Source: Candidatus Gastranaerophilales bacterium | Lineage (GTDB): Bacteria > Cyanobacteriota > Vampirovibrionia > Gastranaerophilales > Gastranaerophilaceae | NCBI GenBank assembly: GCA_947589425.1 | Contig: CANQAV010000001.1 | Location: forward strand, 124,001-188,000 | Direction: 5' to 3' | Length of the DNA: 64,000 nt | Shown here: in pieces, positions 346-43,416 of the stretch | Layout: each line of letters starts with the position of its first letter | Position numbering within the stretch: position 1 is the stretch's first letter | The notes under the pieces: model-generated | Databases searched by the model: none | The model's input: only the letters and a program-made list of their open reading frames with translations | Told to the model about the DNA's origin: nothing | Program-made: the position numbers and the translations under genes

Positions 346-1122
346 TTAATTATTGTTATCTTTATTCAGTTTGTCTGCACGCAGGTATTCGTCTTCAAGT
401 TCACCCTGTCGAACGCTTACATTTCCGTCAACATTAATTATTATTGCAAATCTGTCTCTGTTGGGTAAATTTTTCTCATTCGAATTTAGACTTGTAAGCT
501 TATTTGGATTGTTTATACCGCTCGAACTATAACAAAAACCGGAATAATCCGAAGGACTTGAACTGCAGGCGCCAAGACTGCCGTAATTCGGTTTGTTGGG
601 ACCTCTTTTAAGCCCGTCAACATCAACAACAATAACTGCTTTTTGACCGACACCGCAGGTATGATAAGCATCAATTGTGCAAGACGCTTCATCCCCAAGC
701 ACGGGAACAAACCAGGCAACTCCGTCCGTTGTTTCAAAATAACAGCCGTCATCAGTATAAAAAAGCTTGCTTGCAAGATTTAATCTGTCTGCAAAAAGAG
801 TGCAGAGTTTTAATTTTCCGCCGATTTTTGTAATTTCGCCTCTGCTTGTCACAATTGAAGTAGAGGGAATACCGACTTCTTCCGTATTTACGAGTTTGAT
901 TTTTTTAGGGTCAAACGGATATAGCGATTCGTCGGCTGCAATGTCGTTAATTGCACGCTGAGCAACAGAGAATGCTTTTTTGAACATAGCTTTATTTTTG
1001 TCAGGAGTTGCACGCTGTACGTTAACCAATAAAAGTACGGCTAAAACACCCAGTATACACATAACTATAAGAGTTTCCGCAAGGGTGAAGCCATATTTTT
1101 TTTCAATATCGTAAAATTTCAT
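346..1122 (-). CDS. Type IV prepilin / pseudopilin-like protein
   Basis: This 258-residue protein starts with a short basic leader and the cleavage site G11-FTLAETLIVM (Glu at +5), followed by one hydrophobic helix to about residue 33. The rest is a soluble globular domain with several cysteines (for example in CTLF, DDGCYF, EASC, HTCG) that could form disulfides. The pattern VVDVDGLKRGPNK resembles the 'D.NG...pN' segment common near the C-terminus of G-type pseudopilins. It is a minor-pilin candidate in a minus-strand run with 1273-2370, 2378-5713 and 5735-6541, 150 bases after the previous gene. No assembly ATPase, platform protein or prepilin peptidase is in the window, so the exact machine (type IV pilus or type II secretion) is not decided. 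Confidence 0.8.
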   Translation of the reverse strand: MKFYDIEKKYGFTLAETLIVMCILGVLAVLLLVNVQRATPDKNKAMFKKAFSVAQRAINDIAADESLYPFDPKKIKLVNTEEVGIPSTSIVTSRGEITKIGGKLKLCTLFADRLNLASKLFYTDDGCYFETTDGVAWFVPVLGDEASCTIDAYHTCGVGQKAVIVVDVDGLKRGPNKPNYGSLGACSSSPSDYSGFCYSSSGINNPNKLTSLNSNEKNLPNRDRFAIIINVDGNVSVRQGELEDEYLRADKLNKDNNN

Positions 1123-1272
1123 TATAATCGTAAAATCCTTATTTAATAAACTTCTATCGTAATTCTATTTTTTATATTTGAATTTGTCAAGCATAACAAT
1201 GAAGAACAGATTTGCACCCAAATTTTGTTATGACTTTTAAAAATAATCTTTTAAAAACAACGCCAAGCGCTT

Positions 1273-2370
1273 TTACCAAAGTATAAGCACGGCTCCATAC
1301 CTGTTATTGCGAGGATTAGTAATTGCTTCAAATAATTTTGCCGCAGGCTCAACATCTTTCATACAGCCGGCATCATCCGTACCCTTCTTAAGACAAGTTT
1401 GCGAAGAACTGCGTTTTGAAGAAATTGAGCCGACTATCATACTCATCTTGTCCCATGTTATATCGGAACGATAAGAGGAGTCTTTAAATAACAAATTAAC
1501 ACCAATCTGAGGGTTTGCAGAGCCGAGGATGCCGTAATTTGTTCTTCTGTTTGTCAGAGTAGATACATCCGAAAAATGACCTATTTCAAAAATCCCGTTA
1601 TCGGTATGATTACCGTCCTCGCCTGTTTTTACACAGCCGTTTAATTTAATTGCCATATAATGATCGCTCGGAGCACCGGAAGAATCATAAGCAGTAACTT
1701 CAACGGGAGAACAGCTTGTTTGCCTTAATGCCGCATCATCAACACAAGGTCTTCCCGCCGTAGTTAATCTGCATTCCGAAACATTAGATGCAATAATTGT
1801 ATGATTGTTTAAAATACCGTTTGTGGTTGTTGTTTGTTGATATCCTTTTGCATCTAAAATTTCAGCACCTAAATTATAATCGCCGTCTTCAATAATTAAA
1901 GGGGCAATTCTTGTAACACCGGACTCGTGGTTATTTTCATCATATACGCCGGGTCTTATTCCGATATCATTTCCCAGCTCGTCCGAATATGCGGTAATGA
2001 CCTGACCAAATCGACGTGCGGAACCGGTTTCATTATTACCCGCACCTCTTGCAACAACATAAAACCTGGCGGGACGCTGATTTAGTTTTAAAATACATAT
2101 ATCACCCGTATTTGTACTATCTGCAAGTTCTTTGGGCTCAGGCGAAAGAGTTGTTCTTTCATCTGACTGCCACTGATAAAGTCTGCCATCGTCCCACCAA
2201 CAGGCAAACTGTCCCCTTGTTGTAACAACTTCTTGCCGTTTTACGGTTTTTGTAATCAATGACATCATTAGAACGCAAACAAGCATTATAATTATCATTG
2301 AAACAAGCGTTTCAACAAGGGTAAAGCCTAAAAAGAATTTATTTTGTTTTGTTTTATGAGTTTGTTTCAT
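1273..2370 (-). CDS. Minor pilin-like protein (PilW/GspJ-like position), 365 aa
   Basis: The leader MKQTHKTKQNKFFLG is followed by FTLVETLVSMIIIMLVCVLM, a clear prepilin signal with Gly at -1 and Glu at +5. The transmembrane helix ends near residue 43 with KTVKRQE. The remaining 320 residues form an exported domain with cysteine pairs and no family I can name. The protein ends in YGAVLILW, an ending nearly shared by the next two upstream genes (SVIITW, GQIKILW). It begins seven bases after the stop of 2378-5713 and is surely cotranscribed with it. Size and place in the run fit a minor pilin that helps prime or tip a pilus; that role is inference. Confidence 0.75.
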   Translation of the reverse strand: MKQTHKTKQNKFFLGFTLVETLVSMIIIMLVCVLMMSLITKTVKRQEVVTTRGQFACWWDDGRLYQWQSDERTTLSPEPKELADSTNTGDICILKLNQRPARFYVVARGAGNNETGSARRFGQVITAYSDELGNDIGIRPGVYDENNHESGVTRIAPLIIEDGDYNLGAEILDAKGYQQTTTTNGILNNHTIIASNVSECRLTTAGRPCVDDAALRQTSCSPVEVTAYDSSGAPSDHYMAIKLNGCVKTGEDGNHTDNGIFEIGHFSDVSTLTNRRTNYGILGSANPQIGVNLLFKDSSYRSDITWDKMSMIVGSISSKRSSSQTCLKKGTDDAGCMKDVEPAAKLFEAITNPRNNRYGAVLILW

Positions 2371-2377
2371 TTTTATT

Positions 2378-5300
2378 CTACCAAGTAATTATAACAGAGC
2401 CGTCTCCGCCTTTGAGGTTTGTTTCTTGCGGCAAGTCAAATTGGTTTACAGTACCGCCTGCCATAGTAACAGCACCGGTGTAGATATTTTTGTCTCTATT
2501 ATACATAATTTTTGAAGGAGCATCTTTTAAAATCGAATTAGATCCTGCCGAGGAATTAAAGATTACTGCATCTCCGTAATTTGTATCAATATAATTATAT
2601 TCTGCACCTTTAGTACCGATTCCCGCACCGGAGCGACCTGCACCGAGACCGACAGCGCTGGAGTTTTTAACTATGGACTTAATTGAATCAAATCCCGAAG
2701 GCTTATATGCCGTCACATTCATATTAAATGAAGATTTTATATCGTTTCTCTGACAGCAATCTGTCGTTTTTGTGCCCGAAAAACACTGGTTAATTTTATC
2801 CACTCTTTGAAATTGCGGATTAGCTCTATATGCATATTCGTAAGTACCATGTATTGCTCCTCTGTCAAAAAGAGCATCGTCAAGGTGTTCATATATATTT
2901 GTCGAATCACCTGCATAACAAGGAACATATTTATCGGTTTCAAAGCCGCCTTTTCCGCCTTTTCCGCCTTTTGCAAAAAGAATTTGCTGATTAGCGGCAG
3001 CTCCAGGAACTCTAAGCGAAACTATTGTGTCGTGTCCGTTGTTGCCTTGAGGATTTCTTGCTCTTTTATTACTTTGTTCTACATAATATTTATAATTGAT
3101 TGCAGAAGTATTTGAAGCTCCGTCTTTTACAATAGCCTTCAAACTTAAATTACTAAATTGGGTCGAAGCCAAATCAGCAGCATTGGACAAATTCCAGTTT
3201 CCGCCGCTTCCGATTCTTACTACAAGATGAGTACCTCTTGCGGGAGTTTTAGGTATTTTGGTTGTAACATATTCGCCGGGGGTGCCTGCTTCGCCATATC
3301 CGAGCCATTTAATTGAAAAAGGATATGACCAGCTAAATTGTTCATTGTGCGGTTTTGATAAGTCTGGTCCTACACCCGCCGGCACGCTCCCTTCATCTGG
3401 CTCCCAAACATATGAATAACCGGATGTCCCCGTTTTTTCATCATGCCACTTTACCTTATTACCTTCTTTATCTGTTTGATAAACTCTATTTAAATTAAAA
3501 TTCGTGACATCGCCGCCAGATGCAGATGCACTAGCATCGTGTGTGGTTTTACATGCATCAGCTTGGAGGCTATTAGTTAATTTTTTGCAAGATGTTGGAG
3601 AACCGCCATTTGCAGATGCTGTTAGTGAAACTCCGCCCGACGCTGATTTAAAGGAAACACTGCAGCTTTTACCGGTATAGCCCAAGCATCCATCCATAGC
3701 AGGGGAGCTAAATTCACCGCAACTCTCTTTACTTCCCAAATCGACTGCACTTGTATTACCGTCTTTGCCTTTCAGTTTATCTCCTATTTCCCAAAAATTA
3801 TTAAAATCTAAATTGCAATCGGCATTACTTGAAGGATTAAAACTTTCGTCACCGCGAAGTTTTGAATAATCAGTTGAAGCAACTGCACAAGCTCCTGCGC
3901 CATAATAAGTATTAAGATTATAATAGGCTGTTTTATCTATGTGACATGGATTATCAAGCACACAACCGCTGTGATAATCTTTATAATTCCATTGAACGGC
4001 AGCACAAGCAGCACCGCCTGCACCACCGCAAGCTAAAACGGAAGGCTTGAATTTATGTTCTTTATCAATATTGTAATTACTATCCGTACCTTCAATCATT
4101 TCAATACTTCCCCATCTCGGAACATTGTATACTTCCGATCTTTGTCCGGGTCCGCCTAAAACTTTTGTATATGTCAAAACATCATGCGGGAAATAGTTTT
4201 TTCCGCTGCCGGGTGTAATAGGAACAACAATACGTTGTGATCCGCCAAAAACAGTAACTTGTCTATTTAAACCTAAATTATAGAAAAAGTCATCACCATA
4301 TTCTCTTCCTTGGTCACGGCAAAATCTGTGATCATCAGTTCTTATAGGGGTATCACTATCTTCATAGGTCGCTATTTTTCCATCCGCGCCTCTTTTAAAA
4401 CGGCAATTATGAGGTGCGTGTATATTTGCTCTGGTAATATTTCCGTACACACCGCCCCCTAAACGGCTATTAATATATTTTGCCGCTTCATCAATATTTC
4501 TAGTAATTTCCGTCTCCGCCATCAATGCTGATTCACCATAATTTTGGTCACCTTCCGGAGATACGATTTCCTCCGATAAAAACAGATTACCCCCCGCAGG
4601 AGCAAACCGCCCTACAATTGCATAATCCGCATCAAGATCGTCGGCATGGGTATGATGAGCGGCTACGTATGTTTTTGCCATGTCATATACCTGGTTAAGA
4701 GATACATGTTCTGACCTTCTATTAAACTCATTTCCGTCAGAATCGGCAACCTCTTGCGTATGAATCGGAACTGCAGCAACCGGCCCGCCGCCTGCACCGC
4801 CGCCGCCAACAGCGTGGACTACCATATCTTTTGCATTTTCCGGAAGTTCAAACATTGTTTCGCAATCTTCATCAAATCTTGCAACTCTTGTGTAATTACC
4901 ATGACCGTCGTTACACATTAAATGCCTGTCAATCATTGCATTGGAATTGCCCGAATAAAATCTTTCCCAAGGATAGGCAAGAAGTTGTGTATCTTGTTCG
5001 GAAGATTGATAATTTTCAACTATCCAAAGGTTTGCATGGTTTTGTGCAATAATTCCTCTGTCGGCTACATTAGTAAAAGGAATGCTTCTTGCAATCCTAT
5101 CATCAATTATTCTTCTGGAGCCGGGCGCTACTTCGCCGCCACCAAGCGCAAAGAAGTTAGCCGCAGCCGGGTCATCTTGGACAGTTACAGGGTTTGCTGC
5201 CTCATTAACCGTAACTCTTTTATAGTTAATACTTGCATCATCAAAAAGCCATCTGCCCCCTCTTTTAACAACTTCCGTATGTTCAGTATTGTCACGTGAT

Positions 5301-5713
5301 GAAGTAATTCTAACTCTTGCATCCGTAATTGAGCCGTCGGCATTGATAATAGGTACCGCATCATAATATTCAATATAATACAAATTACCATCGGGACTGA
5401 CGGCACCATCGGGTATGACGGCGGATGTAATTCTCTCATAAACTCTAATTTTTTGTTTTGATTTTGTATCAGGGATTTTTTCAAAATAATCATCTCCGAT
5501 TTTTAAGATTTCCTTGGTAAAAACTTCATATCTGCCGTGGGCGCCCCCTCCGAGAGTTGAATTTGCATCAGAAAAGTTTGCAAGTTTTCTTGTTAAAGAA
5601 GGTGTCATTGCGGCAACCGCAACCGCAACCGCCACAACAATAATAGCCGTTTCTAAAATCGAGAAAGCTGATTTTAAATTTTTTTTCTTTTTTTCAATTT
5701 TCATAATTCTCAT
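2378..5713 (-). CDS. Giant pilin-like protein with glycine-rich domain (candidate pilus-tip adhesin), 1111 aa
   Basis: The N-terminus is prepilin-like: a lysine-rich leader, Ala16 at -1, then FSILETAIIVVAVAVAVAAM (Glu at +5) and one hydrophobic helix. The remaining roughly 1070 residues are far longer than a normal pilin. They contain glycine-rich runs (AVGGGGAGGGP near residue 300, CGGAGGAAC, GKGGKGG, GAGRSGAGIGTKGAE) and end in KGGDGSVIITW. This is the pattern of the glycine-rich fold seen in phage tail-fibre and some adhesin domains. Many cysteines are present. The ATG at 5713 follows an AAGGGAT ribosome site, supporting this start. It lies 21 bases after 5735-6541 in the same operon. I infer an adhesin mounted on a pilus through its pilin-like helix, in the way large minor pilins or PilY1-type proteins act. 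Confidence 0.7.
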   Translation of the reverse strand: MRIMKIEKKKKNLKSAFSILETAIIVVAVAVAVAAMTPSLTRKLANFSDANSTLGGGAHGRYEVFTKEILKIGDDYFEKIPDTKSKQKIRVYERITSAVIPDGAVSPDGNLYYIEYYDAVPIINADGSITDARVRITSSRDNTEHTEVVKRGGRWLFDDASINYKRVTVNEAANPVTVQDDPAAANFFALGGGEVAPGSRRIIDDRIARSIPFTNVADRGIIAQNHANLWIVENYQSSEQDTQLLAYPWERFYSGNSNAMIDRHLMCNDGHGNYTRVARFDEDCETMFELPENAKDMVVHAVGGGGAGGGPVAAVPIHTQEVADSDGNEFNRRSEHVSLNQVYDMAKTYVAAHHTHADDLDADYAIVGRFAPAGGNLFLSEEIVSPEGDQNYGESALMAETEITRNIDEAAKYINSRLGGGVYGNITRANIHAPHNCRFKRGADGKIATYEDSDTPIRTDDHRFCRDQGREYGDDFFYNLGLNRQVTVFGGSQRIVVPITPGSGKNYFPHDVLTYTKVLGGPGQRSEVYNVPRWGSIEMIEGTDSNYNIDKEHKFKPSVLACGGAGGAACAAVQWNYKDYHSGCVLDNPCHIDKTAYYNLNTYYGAGACAVASTDYSKLRGDESFNPSSNADCNLDFNNFWEIGDKLKGKDGNTSAVDLGSKESCGEFSSPAMDGCLGYTGKSCSVSFKSASGGVSLTASANGGSPTSCKKLTNSLQADACKTTHDASASASGGDVTNFNLNRVYQTDKEGNKVKWHDEKTGTSGYSYVWEPDEGSVPAGVGPDLSKPHNEQFSWSYPFSIKWLGYGEAGTPGEYVTTKIPKTPARGTHLVVRIGSGGNWNLSNAADLASTQFSNLSLKAIVKDGASNTSAINYKYYVEQSNKRARNPQGNNGHDTIVSLRVPGAAANQQILFAKGGKGGKGGFETDKYVPCYAGDSTNIYEHLDDALFDRGAIHGTYEYAYRANPQFQRVDKINQCFSGTKTTDCCQRNDIKSSFNMNVTAYKPSGFDSIKSIVKNSSAVGLGAGRSGAGIGTKGAEYNYIDTNYGDAVIFNSSAGSNSILKDAPSKIMYNRDKNIYTGAVTMAGGTVNQFDLPQETNLKGGDGSVIITW

Positions 5714-5734
5714 ATATCCCTTTTAATTCCATTT

Positions 5735-6541
5735 TTACCATAAAATCTTAATTTGACCGTACAATCCGGCTTCGTTTGCAGCACCGCTCATTCCGCATGT
5801 TTGACTGAATGCGCTTTGCTTTGCTTGTGTATATTCGTCTGCTTCCGGACTTGTTGCATCTATATCCAAACCTTCCGGAAAGTCTTCATTTGTTGTAACA
5901 CCGCCTCTTGCTCTTGCAAGTTCATACCAATTATTGCCTGCTGCGCCGTTATCACCAAGAAGGTCTTTAAAAGTATCGGGATTGGTTGCATTTGGCAGCC
6001 AAAATAAAACAGTATCTTGTCCGTTAGTGTTATTTTCTCCGCCTTGACCTATGTGGAAATAGTATAGTCCGTTCATGGCAGGAAGATAGAGCGTTTTAGA
6101 TTCACCCGGAGTTCCGGCAAGATGCGCTCCGCCGCCTCCGCCGCCGCCGATTAAGTGTATTGTTACAAATTCATTTCTGTTTGGGTCAAGAGGGTCTCTG
6201 TTGGTACTGTTTTGATTAACTACGCAATAAGCCGTATTAGCGGTTGTACCGTCTTGAGCCGCATCAAATGCACATTCGCTGCTTACGAATACAAATATAT
6301 TTCTGTCATTAAACTGATCTCTGTTTGCGGCAGTGCAATCATCAAACGGAAAAGTCCACTCTCCCGAAGGAGAAGCCATGTCATTTGTATAATGGTTTTT
6401 CTTAATTGCTACCGAAAGAATCATGGCAAGCACGAAAAACGAAATCATCATACTCATCATAAACTCTATTATTGTAAATCCATCTCTTCGCAAGTTGCTT
6501 TTCCTTATTTTATACAATGGCATTATAATACCATTCGGCAT
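5735..6541 (-). CDS. Minor pilin-like protein with glycine-rich domain, 268 aa
   Basis: The first gene of the minus-strand pilin run. The leader ends in RRDG21, followed by FTIIEFMMSMMISFFVLAMI, a prepilin signal with Glu at +5. The exported part holds a glycine run (HLIGGGGGGGAHLAGTPGES, about residues 130-150), then an IGQGG segment, and ends in YGQIKILW. It looks like a shortened version of the glycine-rich module of the 1111-residue neighbour. An ATG at 6523 is an alternative start that shortens the leader to 15 residues, which is more typical; neither has a clear ribosome site. A divergent prepilin starts 102 bases away on the other strand, so the intergenic space 6542-6643 should hold promoters in both directions. 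Confidence 0.72.
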   Translation of the reverse strand: MPNGIIMPLYKIRKSNLRRDGFTIIEFMMSMMISFFVLAMILSVAIKKNHYTNDMASPSGEWTFPFDDCTAANRDQFNDRNIFVFVSSECAFDAAQDGTTANTAYCVVNQNSTNRDPLDPNRNEFVTIHLIGGGGGGGAHLAGTPGESKTLYLPAMNGLYYFHIGQGGENNTNGQDTVLFWLPNATNPDTFKDLLGDNGAAGNNWYELARARGGVTTNEDFPEGLDIDATSPEADEYTQAKQSAFSQTCGMSGAANEAGLYGQIKILW

Positions 6542-6643
6542 TTTTGTAAAATTCTTTAATTTAAAAGAGGTAATGTTAATTTTTATGTATTTTAATTTAA
6601 AAAATATTATGATATTATTTAAAAAAAGCAGGGAGTTTTATAT

Positions 6644-7762
6644 ATGATAATAAGAAAAAAAGCGTTTACATTGGCTGAAATGCTGATTGTTATGACAATT
6701 ATAGGCATCATTGTTGTTTTGGGGCTGATTACCTTAAACGGTGTGATGAACGACTATGGAGCATCTTATTACAATGCATATTTAACTCTTAAAAAAGCTG
6801 CGTACAATGTTTTAGCGGATCCGTATTGTCCGGATGCAACATCGGGGGGAGAAATATGCCCCGACGGTACAAGAGCATTTCCGACAACTTCGCAGGAGCT
6901 ATGCTTGAGGTTAACCGAATTTATCAACGTTGCAAGTGATGACGAAAACGGAATAAGATGCGATGCTCAGTTTGCGGCAAAACCGGACGGTACTACATTT
7001 TTAAATGACGGAAATAATGTCAATAGCTCAAATCCTAATAATGTAGTTGGTTTTACTTCCAGTAATTCATACAGATATTATATATCAAACAAGCTCAGCT
7101 ACCTTATCTCAAAGAAAACCGAAGCTGTTTCAAGCAATTTTCAAGAAACCGAGTGTCATTATAACTGTCTTGAAGATTCAAAAGGGAATAGAAATTGCTT
7201 TCTTGTATACTGCGAAAGAAACGGCACAAACGAAAGCGAAGACAGGCTTGATAATAACGGATTTTATGTAACTAATTTCTTTGTGGTTTTTGTTGATATA
7301 AACGGCAAGAAAACTCCAAACAGAACAAATAAAACATCAAGACAAACAATATATCCCGATATTGTTCCTTTTATCGTGACTACAAAAGGAGATGTTATCC
7401 CCGTCGGATATCCGGTATTTGACCTTAGATATATGTCGGCAAAAGTTAAATATCCCGATTATAAAATGGAAGCAGGAAATCCTGTTATAAGAGCGCAGGA
7501 AGAAATGTTTTCAAAAAGTGAAACATACGAAAATGCAAGAACGGAAGCATGGGGAAATGAAAGTATGAACGCAAATATACCAATGAGCGTTGATTATAAC
7601 AAAATTGATATCTTGAGACCTTTGTATACAAATGTATTAGATAAAACCGGTGCTCAAGTTACACCGAATTGGGCAAGTTCATTCAATGAGGCACAAGGAT
7701 GCGAAGAAAACTCCGCCGCTTGCAGAGTTATAGTTGACAGCTTTAAAGAAAGAAGATTTTAA
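6644..7762 (+). CDS. Type IV prepilin-like protein, 372 aa
   Basis: A very short leader, MIIRKKA, precedes FTLAEMLIVMTIIGIIVVLG, a textbook prepilin helix with Ala at -1 and Glu at +5. The soluble part has several cysteines, including a cluster near residues 167-190 (ECHYNC, NCFLVYC), and a VFVDINGKKTPN segment like the one in G-type pseudopilins. A GGAG ribosome site lies about 10 bases before the ATG. It is divergent from the minus-strand pilin run and directly followed (nine bases) by a glycosyltransferase, which might modify pilin or surface glycans. It probably takes part in the same pilus; it could also be the major pseudopilin of a secretion system. Confidence 0.78.
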   Translation: MIIRKKAFTLAEMLIVMTIIGIIVVLGLITLNGVMNDYGASYYNAYLTLKKAAYNVLADPYCPDATSGGEICPDGTRAFPTTSQELCLRLTEFINVASDDENGIRCDAQFAAKPDGTTFLNDGNNVNSSNPNNVVGFTSSNSYRYYISNKLSYLISKKTEAVSSNFQETECHYNCLEDSKGNRNCFLVYCERNGTNESEDRLDNNGFYVTNFFVVFVDINGKKTPNRTNKTSRQTIYPDIVPFIVTTKGDVIPVGYPVFDLRYMSAKVKYPDYKMEAGNPVIRAQEEMFSKSETYENARTEAWGNESMNANIPMSVDYNKIDILRPLYTNVLDKTGAQVTPNWASSFNEAQGCEENSAACRVIVDSFKERRF

Positions 7763-27581: not shown

Positions 27582-28706
27582 TTATTTCTTCACAAAATCA
27601 CCGTATAATCTCACTTCTTGAGGTTTTATATTTTTGTTAAGAAGGGATTTTGATGCAATTTCATTTCTTCTTCCCGCAGAATAAAAATCTTCTTTTTGAT
27701 TTAAATATTTCTTTTCAAGTCTTCTTTGGTTTAATTTCGGCAATCCGAAACCTAAATACATTGTTTCAAATGCCAATGCACCCGTCCTTATAAGTCCGTT
27801 TAAAGCTTTAACATCGCTTACAAGACGGTTATCTTTTCTTGAGAAAAAGTCAATCAATTGTTCTTTTACTTTTTCATCCAAATTTTTATCTTTAAGGGCA
27901 TCTATTCCCGTTTTTTCAACTTCTTGAAGAGAGGTTAAAACTTTTTGAGCAGGTCCCATATCGACACTAAGCCCCGCTAATTTATCCGCTTTTAAAGAAG
28001 CAACTCTTGCGCTTTGTTTTTCAATAAGATTATCTATAACTTTTTTAAATACTTTGTCGGGGCTGCCGTTTTGATTTTTTATTTCATCAAAAACTTTAAG
28101 AATTTCATCTATACTGTTATAGCCCGAATATTTAGATATTGCTTCATTATTTTTTAGCGCAACAACACCCGATGTGGGATGAATTGTATCAAGTATGTTT
28201 TTCCCTATCATTTTAAGTTTTTCTTTAGGACTTTCCATAAACTCCTGCGCTTTTTGCGCAATTCCTTTAAGCCCTTTTTCGCTGTTATTATTGAATACTC
28301 TTTGATATGGTTTTGAAGTCAAAGGAAGCCCCGTAATTTTAGAAACGTTTCCCGTAATTAAAGATGTAACGGCTTTAAGTGCAAAAAGCATTATGATTAC
28401 TGTCTGAACATCTCTGAACAAAATTTCTTTTAATTCATCTTTTGTGGCTTCTTTATCATCAGGATTTCTTTTTGCGGCAGTAATAATTCTCGGAATAACA
28501 ACCCCGCCTATCATCAAAGTTGCAAGTGAAACAAAAGAATTATTTGCTCCCGTAGGCTCAATATGTTTCAAAAATTTTTCAAAAGTATCTTTTTTTGGCA
28601 TTTTATTAACTGCGCTGCCAATATGAGAGCACACGCTGTCTGCACCTTTGCGTACAAATTGCGCAGCTTTTGAGGAAGCTATACGATTTAATTTTTCAAT
28701 CGCCAT
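27582..28706 (-). CDS. Uncharacterised lineage-type membrane-associated protein, 374 aa
   Basis: Not a family I can name. Hydrophobic stretches occur at about residues 58-77 (SFVSLATLMIGGVVIPRII) and 102-118 (VIIMLFALKAVTSLITG), and a weaker one near 320-335 (GALAFETMYLGFGLPKLNQ). The region between is helical and lysine-rich. It overlaps the upstream gene by one base, so they are translated together. The C-terminal hydrophobic segment followed by LPKLNQRRLEKKY resembles the ends of 28706-29722 and 42103-43416, suggesting one larger family. Confidence 0.7.
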   Translation of the reverse strand: MAIEKLNRIASSKAAQFVRKGADSVCSHIGSAVNKMPKKDTFEKFLKHIEPTGANNSFVSLATLMIGGVVIPRIITAAKRNPDDKEATKDELKEILFRDVQTVIIMLFALKAVTSLITGNVSKITGLPLTSKPYQRVFNNNSEKGLKGIAQKAQEFMESPKEKLKMIGKNILDTIHPTSGVVALKNNEAISKYSGYNSIDEILKVFDEIKNQNGSPDKVFKKVIDNLIEKQSARVASLKADKLAGLSVDMGPAQKVLTSLQEVEKTGIDALKDKNLDEKVKEQLIDFFSRKDNRLVSDVKALNGLIRTGALAFETMYLGFGLPKLNQRRLEKKYLNQKEDFYSAGRRNEIASKSLLNKNIKPQEVRLYGDFVKK

Positions 28707-29722
28707 TAATTACCTCCCCCGTTACCCGAATTTTTATTTTTACCCGCTTCGTCATATATAACGGAGGCATTAGGATTAACCTTGCCTGATGCAAGAGTAT
28801 ATAATTTTGGAATGAATGACATTAAAATTCCCGTTAAAACAATCATTGAAGAAACTGTTACGAGTCTTTTTCCGATAAAATTATTTTTAAATGCTGTTAT
28901 TATATCGGAATTTACATCCACAGAGCCATTTTTTCCGTTTCTTTTGGCAAAATCTTTAGCATATTCGCTTACATATCCTATATAATTTTTAAATCCCGTT
29001 TTTCCTTTTGCATTAGACGATACGGAATATTTTACTTTTGTAAAATCAGTATTTTTAAAATCATCTTTTGTTCTTTTTACAATCTCTTCAAACTTATCTT
29101 GCAACTCCGTTAATATTTTTGAAGCTTCCTTTTTATTTTTTGCACCGTGATATTTCATTATTCCTTTTGAAATAACATCAATATCTGCCTTATCTACAAC
29201 ATCTTTTCCTATGGATTCTTTTAACATATCTTCGGCGGATATATCAAAAAATGTTTTATAAAAACTTTTTTCTTTCATGCCGGAGCGTACTTTTTGCATT
29301 AAATAAGAAAGATTTTGTATGTTCTCAACATGTGTATTTGCCGTTTTACCGCAAAGCCTTGTTGCAACGGCAAGAATACCCACAGGCGCAACACACATGG
29401 TAGGACCCGTTAAAAATTCTCTTACCGCTTCTTGTAAAAAAGCGGGAATATTAATTTTTCCCGTATATTTATATCCCGCCATGGCACCTTGGATGCTTCT
29501 TGGGATATTTGTACCCATACAGTCTTCTACCGTAAATTGAAGCGCTCTTCCGCCGTTATCAACAAATTGCCAAAAGCCTGCCAGTTTATCTCCTATATTC
29601 GCAATAGCAGACATATTGCCGAAAGAAGGATTATTCTTTTGGTGTTTACAACCGTTGTTATTGCTGTTTTTGTTTCGACTGTAATTTGGAATTCTTGCGT
29701 TATTTACGGAAGAAAGCTTCAT
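28706..29722 (-). CDS. Uncharacterised lineage-type protein with NPSFG motif, 338 aa
   Basis: The N-terminal 33 residues are Asn/Lys-rich and lead into KNNPSFGNMSAIANIGDKLAGFW. A hydrophobic segment lies near residue 115 (MCVAPVGILAVATRLCG) and another near 295 (VTVSSMIVLTGILMSFIPKLYTL), followed by a Gly/Asn-rich end. The middle is probably coiled, charged helix. No enzyme motif is visible. It is the first gene of a two-gene operon. The NPSFG element and the 'hydrophobic helix then PKL' end recur elsewhere in the window. Function unknown. Confidence 0.7.
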   Translation of the reverse strand: MKLSSVNNARIPNYSRNKNSNNNGCKHQKNNPSFGNMSAIANIGDKLAGFWQFVDNGGRALQFTVEDCMGTNIPRSIQGAMAGYKYTGKINIPAFLQEAVREFLTGPTMCVAPVGILAVATRLCGKTANTHVENIQNLSYLMQKVRSGMKEKSFYKTFFDISAEDMLKESIGKDVVDKADIDVISKGIMKYHGAKNKKEASKILTELQDKFEEIVKRTKDDFKNTDFTKVKYSVSSNAKGKTGFKNYIGYVSEYAKDFAKRNGKNGSVDVNSDIITAFKNNFIGKRLVTVSSMIVLTGILMSFIPKLYTLASGKVNPNASVIYDEAGKNKNSGNGGGN

Positions 29723-41189: not shown

Positions 41190-41723
41190 ATGGAAAAGTC
41201 AAACAAAACCGAGACAATCGGCAATCTTATCAACGAAAGTGTTTTTGCGCAGATGATTAAAAAAGATAAATTCAACTGCGCAATAAAATGTGCAACAATT
41301 TTTTCATTTTGGGAAGAAATTGTGGGCAAAAAGTTTTCGAAATGCACAAAACCGTACGCAATAAAAAAGAATAAAATGTTTATAAAAGTCGAAAGCCCGG
41401 TAATTGCTCAGGAATTATCATTTAACAAAGAAAAATTAATACAAAAAATCAACTCATATTCCATGCCCTTAGATATAAATATTAAAGAAATAATGTTTGA
41501 TTACAAAAATTTTTATTCCGATGAAAATAAAGAAAAAAAAGAAGAAAATGATTCGGTAATATATTTTGATACAAAAAAAATTGATGAAACGAAATTTAGC
41601 GAAAAAACCGAGGAATCAATAAAAAAATCGGTTGATAATATTACTTTTTTAGATGAAACTCAGAAAAAAATCTTTGTAAAAAAAATAGTTAATACTTTTA
41701 AAGCAAGATTTTTACAAAAATAA
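41190..41723 (+). CDS. DUF721/DciA-like protein
   Basis: I start it at the ATG at 41190, preceded by AAAAGGA, rather than at a TTG inside the terminator. The 177-residue protein has FSFWEEIVGKKFSKCTKPYAIKKNKMFIKVESPVIAQELSFNKEKLIQKIN. This is the DUF721 pattern: W..IVG, a basic beta strand region, then 'v.sp..aqEL'. DUF721 includes DciA, the loader of the replicative helicase DnaB in most bacteria. The acidic, lysine-rich C-terminus is extra and lineage-specific. A role in replication start is likely but not proven. Confidence 0.65.
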   Translation: MEKSNKTETIGNLINESVFAQMIKKDKFNCAIKCATIFSFWEEIVGKKFSKCTKPYAIKKNKMFIKVESPVIAQELSFNKEKLIQKINSYSMPLDINIKEIMFDYKNFYSDENKEKKEENDSVIYFDTKKIDETKFSEKTEESIKKSVDNITFLDETQKKIFVKKIVNTFKARFLQK

Positions 41724-41734
41724 TTAAAATATAC

Positions 41735-41763
41735 TGGACAAAAAAAAATAAGTAGTGTATTAT
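41735..41763 (+). promoter_or_regulatory. Promoter of a 28-codon peptide gene
   Basis: TGGACA (41735-41740), exactly 17 bases, TATTAT (41758-41763). Expected transcription start near 41770, about 22 bases before the small ORF. Confidence 0.55.
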
Positions 41764-41791
41764 GTTTGCGTTGACTGTATTGAGGTTTTTT

Positions 41792-41878
41792 ATGTTAGAT
41801 AAAGTTATTGAATTAATACGACGTATACTTACATCAAGAAAAGAGGCTCTTATTTATATCCCTATTGATAAGGATTAA
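41792..41878 (+). CDS. Small peptide gene, 28 aa, amphipathic
   Basis: The frame starts at ATG 41792, six bases after GAGG, and codes for MLDKVIELIRRILTSRKEAL followed by IYIPIDKD. The first 20 residues can form an amphipathic cationic helix. It is bracketed by a good promoter (41735-41763) and a strong terminator (41891-41925), so it forms a complete transcription unit of about 155 bases. I know no homologue. It may be a membrane-active or regulatory peptide, or the unit may act as RNA. Confidence 0.5.
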   Translation: MLDKVIELIRRILTSRKEALIYIPIDKD

Positions 41879-41890
41879 AAAAATTTAGAA

Positions 41891-41925
41891 AAATAAGACC
41901 TCTTTAAAAGAGGTCTTATTTTTTT
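41891..41925 (+). terminator. Terminator of the 28-aa peptide unit
   Basis: A 15-base perfect stem (AAATAAGACCTCTTT and complement) followed by a T run, 12 bases after the small ORF's stop. Confidence 0.85.
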
Positions 41926-42004
41926 GTAAAAAAATGTATAAATTAAGCTTTTATATGGCAACAAATAATATTTAGGAAAGTTTAAATTTTAGTAAAGGAT
42001 AAAT

Positions 42005-42082
42005 ATGATAAAAAATATTCGACGCAATTTACAGGTAAATACAAAAGTTCAAAGATTAATGAACTTAATTTGGGGACTATAA
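42005..42082 (+). CDS. Possible 25-codon leader peptide
   Basis: ATG 42005 follows AAAGGA by five bases. The frame gives MIKNIRRNLQVNTKVQRLMN and LIWGL, a basic peptide ending 20 bases before the next gene's start. It may be a small protein or an upstream ORF of the 437-residue gene. Support is only the ribosome site and the spacing. Confidence 0.35.
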   Translation: MIKNIRRNLQVNTKVQRLMNLIWGL

Positions 42083-42102
42083 TTTAGTTGTAAAGGAATA
42101 AA

Positions 42103-43416
42103 ATGAATATACCGAGCATTATATCAACATCATCATTAAACTTATTATCAGGCTTAGCAAATAACGACAGCTCTATTGCATCCATGGTAGTAAAAGATAC
42201 CATTTCTAATGCGGCTATCGTACATACATATAAAAAAGAAGGCGGAAAAGATGACGCAAGAGAAAAAGCCATTGAAGAATTCGGCACGGGCGCAATATGG
42301 CTTTTTGGCATTCCTACCGTTAAAGCAATAATGGATAAAACAATCTATCCGCTTTTAGGGATAAGCTCTAAAATTGACCCCAGAATTTTAAATGACAAGG
42401 AAAAACTTTCTCAAATAAAACAATCTCTTGAAAGTTCAAGCAACGAATTTTTAAGCAAAGAAAAAGAAATCTTTAAAAACTTGGAAAGCAAAGCAGGGCT
42501 CTATAAGGGTGCTCACGTTGCAAAATTTGCGATTTCTACCGTATTATCCGCAATTGCGCTCAAAAAAATAATAGAATATAAACAAAAAACAACACAAAGA
42601 AGAATACAAAAAGATTATTACAATAACAATGCTTCAAAAATTTTAATTAACAAACAAAAAAATGAAAATATAGCTTTTAGCGCATTTTGTCCGCAAAAAA
42701 AAGCTAAAAATGTTTCATTTGGCGGTCTTGGTGCAGCTTTAGGCGACTTTATGTATAACCCCATTAAAAACACATCAATTCTCGACTGCGTTATAACGGG
42801 AACAAGACTTAAAGAAGCGAGAAGAGGAGAAAGAAAAGAAGTCGCACTAAAAGAAGCATTCCAAATTTTCTTCATATATTGTCTTGCAAAACCAATTCAG
42901 AAAGGATTTGAATTTGTAGGTAAAAAAATAAACAGGCCGATTGAACTTGACCCTAAAGTATTGTTCTCAAAAAATCTTAAACAAGATATAAATGCCTCAA
43001 AGCCTGCAATCGAAAGCTTATTAAATTCTAATAACATATTAAAAGATATATATTCTCTTGATGTTAAAAATCCGCTTGTAAGTTTGCTTGATAAAAACGG
43101 CGTTATATCAACTCTTAAAGGAAAGAACGGGGAAATTAACGCAATAAGCTATCTGAAAACTCCGGATGAAAGTGCGGTAAAAAGCACTCTAAAAAATCTG
43201 CTCAGCCTCAACGGCAAAATTGAAAATCTAAAATCAATTAAAGCTTTTAAAACCCTTGCCGTTTTAGGTAATGTTGCGCTTGCTGCTTGGGCTATGGGTG
43301 TACTGCAGCCAAAAGTTGCAATCGGAATGAGAAAACTTTTAAATCACGGGGATAACAGAAATCCTGCAATTGTTGAACAGGAAAGAAAAATGAATTTGGA
43401 AGCACATCAGGGCTAA
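42103..43416 (+). CDS. Uncharacterised lineage-type protein with NVSFG motif, 437 aa
   Basis: The N-terminal half has helices and weak hydrophobic segments (ISTVLSAIALKKIIEY at about 144-160). At residues 205-215 it has KKAKNVSFGGLGAALGDFMYNP, with the NVSFG element like the NPSFG of 28706-29722. A further hydrophobic segment near 385-405 (AVLGNVALAAWAMGVLQPKVAI) is followed by a charged tail. AAAGGA precedes the ATG. No catalytic motif is seen. The shared pattern with 27582-28706 and 28706-29722 suggests a lineage-restricted family at the membrane. Function unknown. Confidence 0.7.
   Translation: MNIPSIISTSSLNLLSGLANNDSSIASMVVKDTISNAAIVHTYKKEGGKDDAREKAIEEFGTGAIWLFGIPTVKAIMDKTIYPLLGISSKIDPRILNDKEKLSQIKQSLESSSNEFLSKEKEIFKNLESKAGLYKGAHVAKFAISTVLSAIALKKIIEYKQKTTQRRIQKDYYNNNASKILINKQKNENIAFSAFCPQKKAKNVSFGGLGAALGDFMYNPIKNTSILDCVITGTRLKEARRGERKEVALKEAFQIFFIYCLAKPIQKGFEFVGKKINRPIELDPKVLFSKNLKQDINASKPAIESLLNSNNILKDIYSLDVKNPLVSLLDKNGVISTLKGKNGEINAISYLKTPDESAVKSTLKNLLSLNGKIENLKSIKAFKTLAVLGNVALAAWAMGVLQPKVAIGMRKLLNHGDNRNPAIVEQERKMNLEAHQG

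Follow-up and report, generated by a model that had tools for sequence, protein, structure and literature searches.

The 28-codon open reading frame (ORF1) and its flanking signals, found in the 64,000-nucleotide stretch of DNA analysed here (the window; all coordinates are positions within it), constitute a real and conserved element that had been wrongly read as self-contained. We conclude that the gene beginning at position 42103 is probably controlled by ribosome-mediated attenuation in two stages, the first of which is the ORF1 unit. Comparison among related loci supports the frames, codons, pairings, spacing and linkage on which this reading draws. The features concerned are the following.

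41735..41763, + strand: sigma-70-like promoter of the leader, TGGACA-17-TATTAT (10 of 12 consensus matches; recurs in aligned loci)
41782..41785, + strand: Shine-Dalgarno sequence GAGG of ORF1 (sequence inspection; recurs in relatives)
41792..41878, + strand: ORF1, 28-codon leader peptide MLDKVIELIRRILTSRKEALIYIPIDKD, with ATG at 41792 and stop at 41876-41878 (open frame, homologues in relatives)
41819..41824, + strand: tandem rare Arg codons CGA CGT inside ORF1, putative control codons (codon comparison)
41841..41855, + strand: antiterminator segment within ORF1, able to pair with the terminator 5' arm at -15.0 kcal/mol (pairing comparison)
41886..41926, + strand: intrinsic terminator or attenuator hairpin (hairpin scan, comparison with other loci)
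41957..41961, + strand: GGCAA-like recurring block between the terminator and ORF2, putative second promoter element (alignment of 20 loci, inspection)
41994..41999, + strand: Shine-Dalgarno sequence AAAGGA of ORF2 (sequence inspection)
42005..42082, + strand: ORF2, 25-codon micro-ORF MIKNIRRNLQVNTKVQRLMNLIWGL (conserved, between terminator and gene)
42020..42025, + strand: tandem Arg codons CGA CGC of ORF2 (sequence inspection, comparison)
42028..42039, + strand: segment A of ORF2, able to pair with segment B (pairing comparison)
42062..42082, + strand: conserved C-terminal NLIWGL-stop of ORF2 (comparison, pN/pS)
42083..42097, + strand: segment B with the gene's Shine-Dalgarno sequence AAAGGA at 42092-42097 (inspection, pairing comparison)
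42103..43416, + strand: putatively regulated gene, 437 amino acids, predicted all-helical (linkage, family searches, structure model)

The promoter, Shine-Dalgarno sequence, 28-codon frame and terminator listed in a preliminary description of the unit are all present where it had placed them, and each of the 28 genomes from the genus has the peptide. The promoter score is weak when taken alone because matches of the TGGACA-17-TATTAT type are no more frequent than in shuffled sequence (11 in the window versus 10.0 in shuffles), and the case for this promoter therefore rests on conservation. Boxes resembling -35 and -10 elements recur in 20 aligned loci, as does a hairpin followed by T's, in an alignment of which one row stops short of the -35 element and in which the hairpin of L019 was overlooked by the later scanner. 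The core of the window's hairpin (41889-41923) comprises 16 pairs, and T's end this near-palindrome on the + strand also; the scan reports the core as a - strand feature alone because the + strand T run falls within the stem. No further copy of the unit was found in the same genome, where the best DNA match beyond the locus and its own palindromic stem has an E value of 0.05. Rfam yielded one tRNA as the sole match above gathering score in the whole window, and at E values up to 10 the region 41700-42120 gave sub-threshold matches alone (for example, Phe_leader at 24.0 versus 55 bits).

The preliminary description knew of no homologue, but the whole genus has homologues, and other genera have shorter counterparts. 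Searches by tblastn with the 28-residue peptide found it in 19 of 23 same-genus relatives (own genome not counted) and in 0 of 15 genomes of other genera, and a peptide profile matches all 28 genus genomes, 27 of them at E <1e-11 and the weakest (G010) at 1.1e-4. The frame and start are open in each of the first 20 loci from the tblastn set, with GAGG located 9-15 nucleotides upstream of the ATG. Among 25 distinct sequences from the genus, pN/pS is 0.64 for the whole frame, 1.0 (neutral) for codons 12-17 and 0.34 for the last 9 codons. These findings support a translated frame, as the preliminary description had it, and its conservation within the genus. The peptide alignment (A1) holds 19 of the 20 peptides, two being identical, and a second alignment (A2) likewise holds 19 of 20, with L017 omitted for its unclear start and added later by script. 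Beyond this and a few related genera, ORF1 mostly encodes 11-22 residues, of which Arg-Arg is the main part that persists. Outside the genus, then, the pattern is largely one of RNA structure kept while the frame is not, which the preliminary description had named as telling against its reading, whereas inside the genus the frame is conserved as well.

A second micro-ORF (ORF2) follows the terminator, and its ending recurs across the order. An ORF2 profile, taken at E values up to 1, has matches in 246 of 286 genomes from the order, many of them over the last nine residues only. Among 130 loci examined, the gene is present in all, and 128 of the frames end in NL[IVAS]WGL-stop, one in WGLTI-stop and one in NMVWGL-stop; the 128/130 figure is selected for ORF2 because these loci were mostly reached through ORF1 or ORF2 searches, and the set holds a few genomes twice (e.g. 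L079/L122, L084/L123, L067/L184). Loci chosen by the gene (best 80 of 301) are a fairer sample, and they comprise 64 with NLxWGL-stop, 10 with NMxWGL-stop and one with WGLTI before the gene, the rest being two cut by contig ends and three without ORF2. ORF2 is lost, shortened or decayed in L235, L259 and L260. Thirty-six further loci, mostly from genomes in which the ORF2 profile is weak or silent (about 11 variants being read by eye), include 25 with NLxWGL-stop (some as LQNLIWGL, LMNLRWGL or ANLIWGL), one with NMLWGL-stop, four that hold a His-type paralogue and six with no or decayed ORF2; of these six, L302 and L308 have none, and in L295, L323, L324 and L325 it is lost, shortened or decayed.

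At the nucleotide level, 98 distinct 36-mers encoding the ending draw on all 4 codons for Gly, both for Asn and, at the final Leu, 5, and pN/pS is 0.14 with synonymous sites close to saturation. A DNA pattern for NLIWGL-stop occurs exactly once in 58 of 97 genomes and never twice, versus 4 genomes with a reversed control pattern, and it directly precedes the gene wherever coordinates were compared (G033, G036, G063, G066, G104, G117). The stop codon is TAA in 65, TAG in 51 and TGA in 12 of the 128 frames. ORF2 is between 15 and 56 residues long, with MNKHSKKLMNLIWGL and similar peptides as the shortest, and only the last ~9 residues are kept. It is very likely that ORF2 is translated and selected at its carboxyl end because this ending is conserved with free synonymous change directly before a gene. 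Its conserved C-terminal residues would lie at the presumed stall site, as in arrest peptides. The frame has grown to 56 residues in L104 and L121, where an insert resembling EAGG-QGRLCG-RKA precedes the usual ending.

Arginine codons were counted in 153 loci, which are the non-identical ones of the 128 and 64 loci above and so contain no loci without an NLxWGL ending; a terminator was found in 140 of these, and none was seen by the scanner in 13. ORF2 carries Arg-Arg in 107 of the 153 loci, encoded by CGA-CGA in 93. An ORF1 with Arg-Arg is present in 114 of the 140 leaders with a terminator, and 105 of these 114 use CGA-CGN, although four picks (L082, L102, L211, L228) resemble chance. Arg-Arg itself served as the ORF1 search criterion, with a comparison against the reverse strand and shuffles in 134 leaders as its control. 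In that comparison, 107 of 134 leaders have a frame that starts with ATG and carries CGA-CGN within codons 4-17, versus 0 of 134 opposite strands and 0.1% of shuffles; the corresponding values for any Arg-Arg frame are 111 of 134, 25 of 134 and 10.3%. The 26 of 140 leaders without an Arg-Arg ORF1 comprise five loci of the window's genus with CGA-AGC (Arg-Ser), 13 of the L222 type with Lys-Arg (using CGA, CGC or CGT) and eight with nothing alike.

CGA is a rare codon in this DNA: 27 window genes contain 404 Arg codons, of which it makes up 18, and 24 Arg-Arg pairs, of which one is CGA-CGN. The tRNA-Arg genes found in the same genome (30 of 38 tRNA loci scanned) are a single ACG beside TCT, CCT and CCG. 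An SD-like motif accompanies 61 of the 114 ORF1s, whereas 31 have no such motif but a TATAAT-like box at most 9 nucleotides from the ATG, and 22 have neither. Some ORF1s outside the genus and its related genera thus appear from their sequences to be leaderless. The leaders therefore carry an ORF with a start and either a ribosome-binding site or a seemingly leaderless start, and they are enriched in putative regulatory codons, though with two codons per leader only; both properties are expected of attenuators.

RNA that follows the Arg codons can pair with the 5' arm of the terminator, with a mean energy of -11.4 kcal/mol for a leader's own arm versus -8.0 kcal/mol when the leaders come from other arm families, in a comparison that left leader lengths unmatched between own and foreign partners. 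The own pairing beats the cross mean in 131 of 134 loci and beats all 40 cross partners in 22. Shuffled leaders average -5.9 kcal/mol, and the own pairing falls under the 5th percentile of shuffles in 106 of 134. This pairing analysis used 134 loci and the spacing analysis 110, with loci of weak terminator or short leader excluded. An alignment of 40 loci whose ORF1s are long gives a covariation score of 0.315 versus 0.251 for shuffles (0 of 500 reaching it) and 0.243 for the best slid version. Two of five covariation measures are not above shuffles (both-side-changed pairs, 300/500; further pair types, 158/500), and a slide of -2 gives more doubly changed cells than the true register (43 versus 33). 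The proportion of paired cells in this analysis (70.4%) may be depressed because the MAFFT alignment used (A5) seems to put some arms in the wrong place.

The distance from the Arg codons to the first antiterminator-paired base has a median of 16 nucleotides (interquartile range 15-17, n=110) and lies between 14 and 19 in 95 of 110 loci, versus a median of 27 (interquartile range 13-45) in shuffles. This spacing holds although ORF1 length and the intervening sequence vary. The front of a ribosome stalled on these codons would lie at approximately the point where the antiterminator pairing begins. Judged by these comparisons, whose controls remove shared ancestry only in part, the leader would form a terminator and a mutually exclusive antiterminator, the latter predicted to start just past a ribosome positioned on the regulatory codons, as in known attenuators.

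A second pairing may act at the gene itself. The pairing partners in the window are 42028-42039 and 42083-42094, the latter including the AAA of AAAGGA, and two of 106 foreign A segments pair with this segment B as well or better. When A is taken as the 18 nucleotides past the Arg-Arg codons of ORF2 and B as the stretch from the ORF2 stop to the gene, the own pairing averages -8.35 versus -5.04 for cross pairings and ranks in the top 10% in 55% and in the top 25% in 74% of 103 loci; a cruder test with whole segments has 87 of 134 loci beating the cross mean. The pairing is weak in many loci of the window's genus (e.g. L013, L016, L024). Between the end of segment B and the gene start lie a median of 16 nucleotides, and up to about 60 at the 90th percentile, in 75 loci.

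From these patterns we infer how ribosome stalling, the signal behind it, the direction in which the gene responds and the part played by the WGL ending could fit together. A ribosome would track RNA polymerase through ORF1. If it were slow on CGA-CGT, it would shield the adjacent RNA, the next segment would pair with the terminator 5' arm, and polymerase would read on, whereas fast passage over ORF1 would allow the terminator to form. On the read-through RNA, a ribosome slow on the CGA-CGC of ORF2 would cover segment A, so that A:B pairing would be absent and the gene translated; otherwise the two segments would pair at the gene's Shine-Dalgarno sequence. The NLxWGL-stop ending would act in the ribosome, most likely through slow or arrested termination beside the gene start. 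The likeliest signal would be poor charging of the single tRNA-Arg(ACG) found, which should read CGA.

The gene presumed to be the target has no known link to arginine, which counts against reading the leader as an attenuator. In a sample of the phylum, it is present in 170 of 386 genomes, one of which, with a weak match, lies outside the order. Searches with its protein sequence gave no family above cut-off in Pfam or NCBIfam (LysR-type HTH matches lie far below it), no significant family in PHROGs (best E 0.077) and a best E value of 0.25 among PDB sequences. A single-sequence structure model is poor (pLDDT 34), whereas one built from a 53-row alignment is good (pLDDT 83); this alignment (A4) consists of the window protein and 52 of 77 candidates, with near-duplicates and wrong ORF picks removed by eye. 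Foldseek found no significant match for the model (best E 0.69). A VIA-align search gave a best Z of 6.3 to 9mg8 followed mostly by ABC-exporter chains at Z of about 5, which we read as chance similarity of long helices.

Paralogues of this gene lie behind leaders of other composition. One in the same genome, on C5 (leader L347:1191-1371), follows a Cys-run peptide, MINLNLVKVQICCCCKFFLCLRA, and by raw counts Cys runs precede 10 of the 11 close homologues of this paralogue, itself included, with none at L359; the loci with such leaders are L347, L358 and L360-L368. The same rule finds Cys runs at 0 of 19 distant homologues. Upstream of a third paralogous gene, His-run leaders occur at 25 among 30 listed homologues (raw counts; 25 of L388-L417), and also at L306, L307 and L310, in other genera. 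For the His and Cys leaders, the script picked up a usable hairpin in 8 of 34 only, with antiterminator distances of 7-17 nucleotides. No leader was seen before another paralogue of the same genome, L346, nor, by eye, ahead of the other helical proteins that the window encodes at 27582-29722. Unless codons are sensed, it is difficult to account for three members of one family standing behind leaders of the Arg, His and Cys types.

The region 27582-29722 encodes, on the - strand, two adjoining proteins, at least one of which contains a motif of the SFG type similar to the one in the window gene, and neither has a family above cut-off. In most of the 20 loci, the interval from the terminator to ORF2 contains a GGCAA-like block with a T-rich stretch after it, and such a block also lies upstream of 29722, ahead of another helical-protein gene; an alternative sigma factor possibly uses it as a promoter, and the copy before ORF2 may let transcription bypass stage 1 as a second promoter. 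Elsewhere in the window, 346-7762 holds a cluster of pilin-like proteins, one of 1111 amino acids, with N-termini that we take to be of the prepilin type.

Arginine shortage is the likeliest signal, yet in 18 of 140 leaders the site retains no more than a single Arg codon. These leaders, in which a single CGN codon stands next to Ser or Lys, are consistent with another view, namely that the leaders sense generally slow translation or a ribosome inhibitor rather than arginine and that CGA-CGN is an intrinsically slow site. The C-terminus of ORF2, conserved in the manner of arrest peptides, and an E. coli upstream ORF that reportedly senses several antibiotic classes (PMC12121999) point in the same direction. 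However, the His and Cys runs before paralogues of the same family suggest amino-acid-specific sensing, and we regard a general sensor as unlikely.

It is also possible, though decidedly doubtful, that ORF2 encodes a microprotein that works with the downstream protein, with its C-terminus as the binding end and the leader structures secondary. Selection at the amino-acid level, the exact ending in 128 of 130 loci of the ORF2-selected set and an ORF2 stop located 2-4 nucleotides from the gene start in eight loci agree with such a role. A binding partner is harder to reconcile with a frame of 15 to 56 residues of which the last nine or so alone are kept, and with the several genomes that retain the gene but have lost ORF2.

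Linkage bears on whether ORF1 acts alone. The gene downstream of the unit is the same in 20 of 20 loci, whereas the upstream genes are MetK-like in 13 and other in seven (in the window, Pfam assigns a DciA gene beside the MetK-like one), and the unit was never found apart from its fixed neighbour among these loci. The gap from terminator to ORF2 is 28-29 nucleotides in L180 and L020 and 16-32 nucleotides in L105-L108, from another genus, and the gene there therefore seems to require read-through. The unit is thus tied to one gene rather than self-contained, and the suggestion of a bioactive peptide or dual-function small RNA finds no support in a peptide that is neutral over codons 12-17 and replaced beyond related genera. 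That ORF1 is an independent gene of this kind, with ORF2 and the downstream gene served by their own promoter at the GGCAA block, is highly improbable: its own promoter-like boxes and terminator, the purifying selection on its last nine codons and the recurring block before ORF2 would favour this, but the fixed linkage amid changing upstream genes, the covariation of its RNA with the terminator arm, the little room that the short gaps leave for a promoter and the replaced peptide oppose it.

The proposed two-stage attenuator shares parts with several known systems. Attenuation of the trp/his type involves a short leader ORF, regulatory codons of low general usage and alternative antiterminator and terminator structures (PMC1183508), and the present locus resembles it in its leader ORF, rare codons, predicted alternative structures and His-run leaders on paralogues. 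It differs in its two Arg codons (CGA-CGN), its lack of a known biosynthetic gene, its second micro-ORF and its occurrence in Gastranaerophilales. Many amino-acid attenuators have longer codon runs than the two Arg codons of ORF1, a point against the attenuator reading. The Salmonella mgtCBR leader has tandem attenuators, mgtM and mgtP, that answer to ATP and proline and that both act on transcription (PMC3641672). That leader likewise has two short ORFs in series, one of them rich in Pro codons, whereas here both ORFs bear the same kind of Arg codon and the second would act on translation.

In translational attenuation of erm genes, stalling on a leader ORF frees the gene's ribosome-binding site, and stalling on ORF2 would do likewise. 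The ermB gene has two leader peptides, with erythromycin as inducer (PMC8274638); unlike that system, the present locus has no resistance gene, and the motifs are unrelated. ORF2 resembles TnaC in being a short peptide with conserved C-terminal residues up to the stop codon, but it ends in TAA, TAG or TGA, and its arrest is putative. The NLxWGL motif is also not known to resemble TnaC. Paralogous hisS genes of bacilli carry histidine leader peptides (PMC2965389), and the likeness lies in paralogous genes behind amino-acid-specific leader peptides; there, one amino acid is shared, whereas here an uncharacterised helical family has Arg, His and Cys leaders. No paper on leader peptides of Gastranaerophilales or on this locus was found among the matches listed from the open literature searched.

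The most fitting class for the locus is that of ribosome-mediated attenuators, with a new design in which tandem rare Arg codons occur in two serial leaders and the second leader closes with a near-invariant peptide. A bolder version, which we advance only tentatively, holds that NLxWGL-stop is a new termination-arrest peptide retained in most of the order, that it follows a tandem-CGA leader so that one signal is checked twice, first at transcription and then at translation, and that the paralogous helical proteins behind Arg, His or Cys leaders are amino-acid-specific starvation outputs. If the attenuator is confirmed, codon-sensing leader peptides would be extended to non-photosynthetic gut relatives of cyanobacteria, and the locus would be a natural two-stage attenuator using one codon kind twice. 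The conserved nine-residue ending of ORF2 is a directly testable candidate for ribosome arrest. The leaders would also provide a first regulatory handle on an uncharacterised protein family, and three paralogues with Arg, His or Cys leader codons would imply a role for this family when a particular amino acid runs short.
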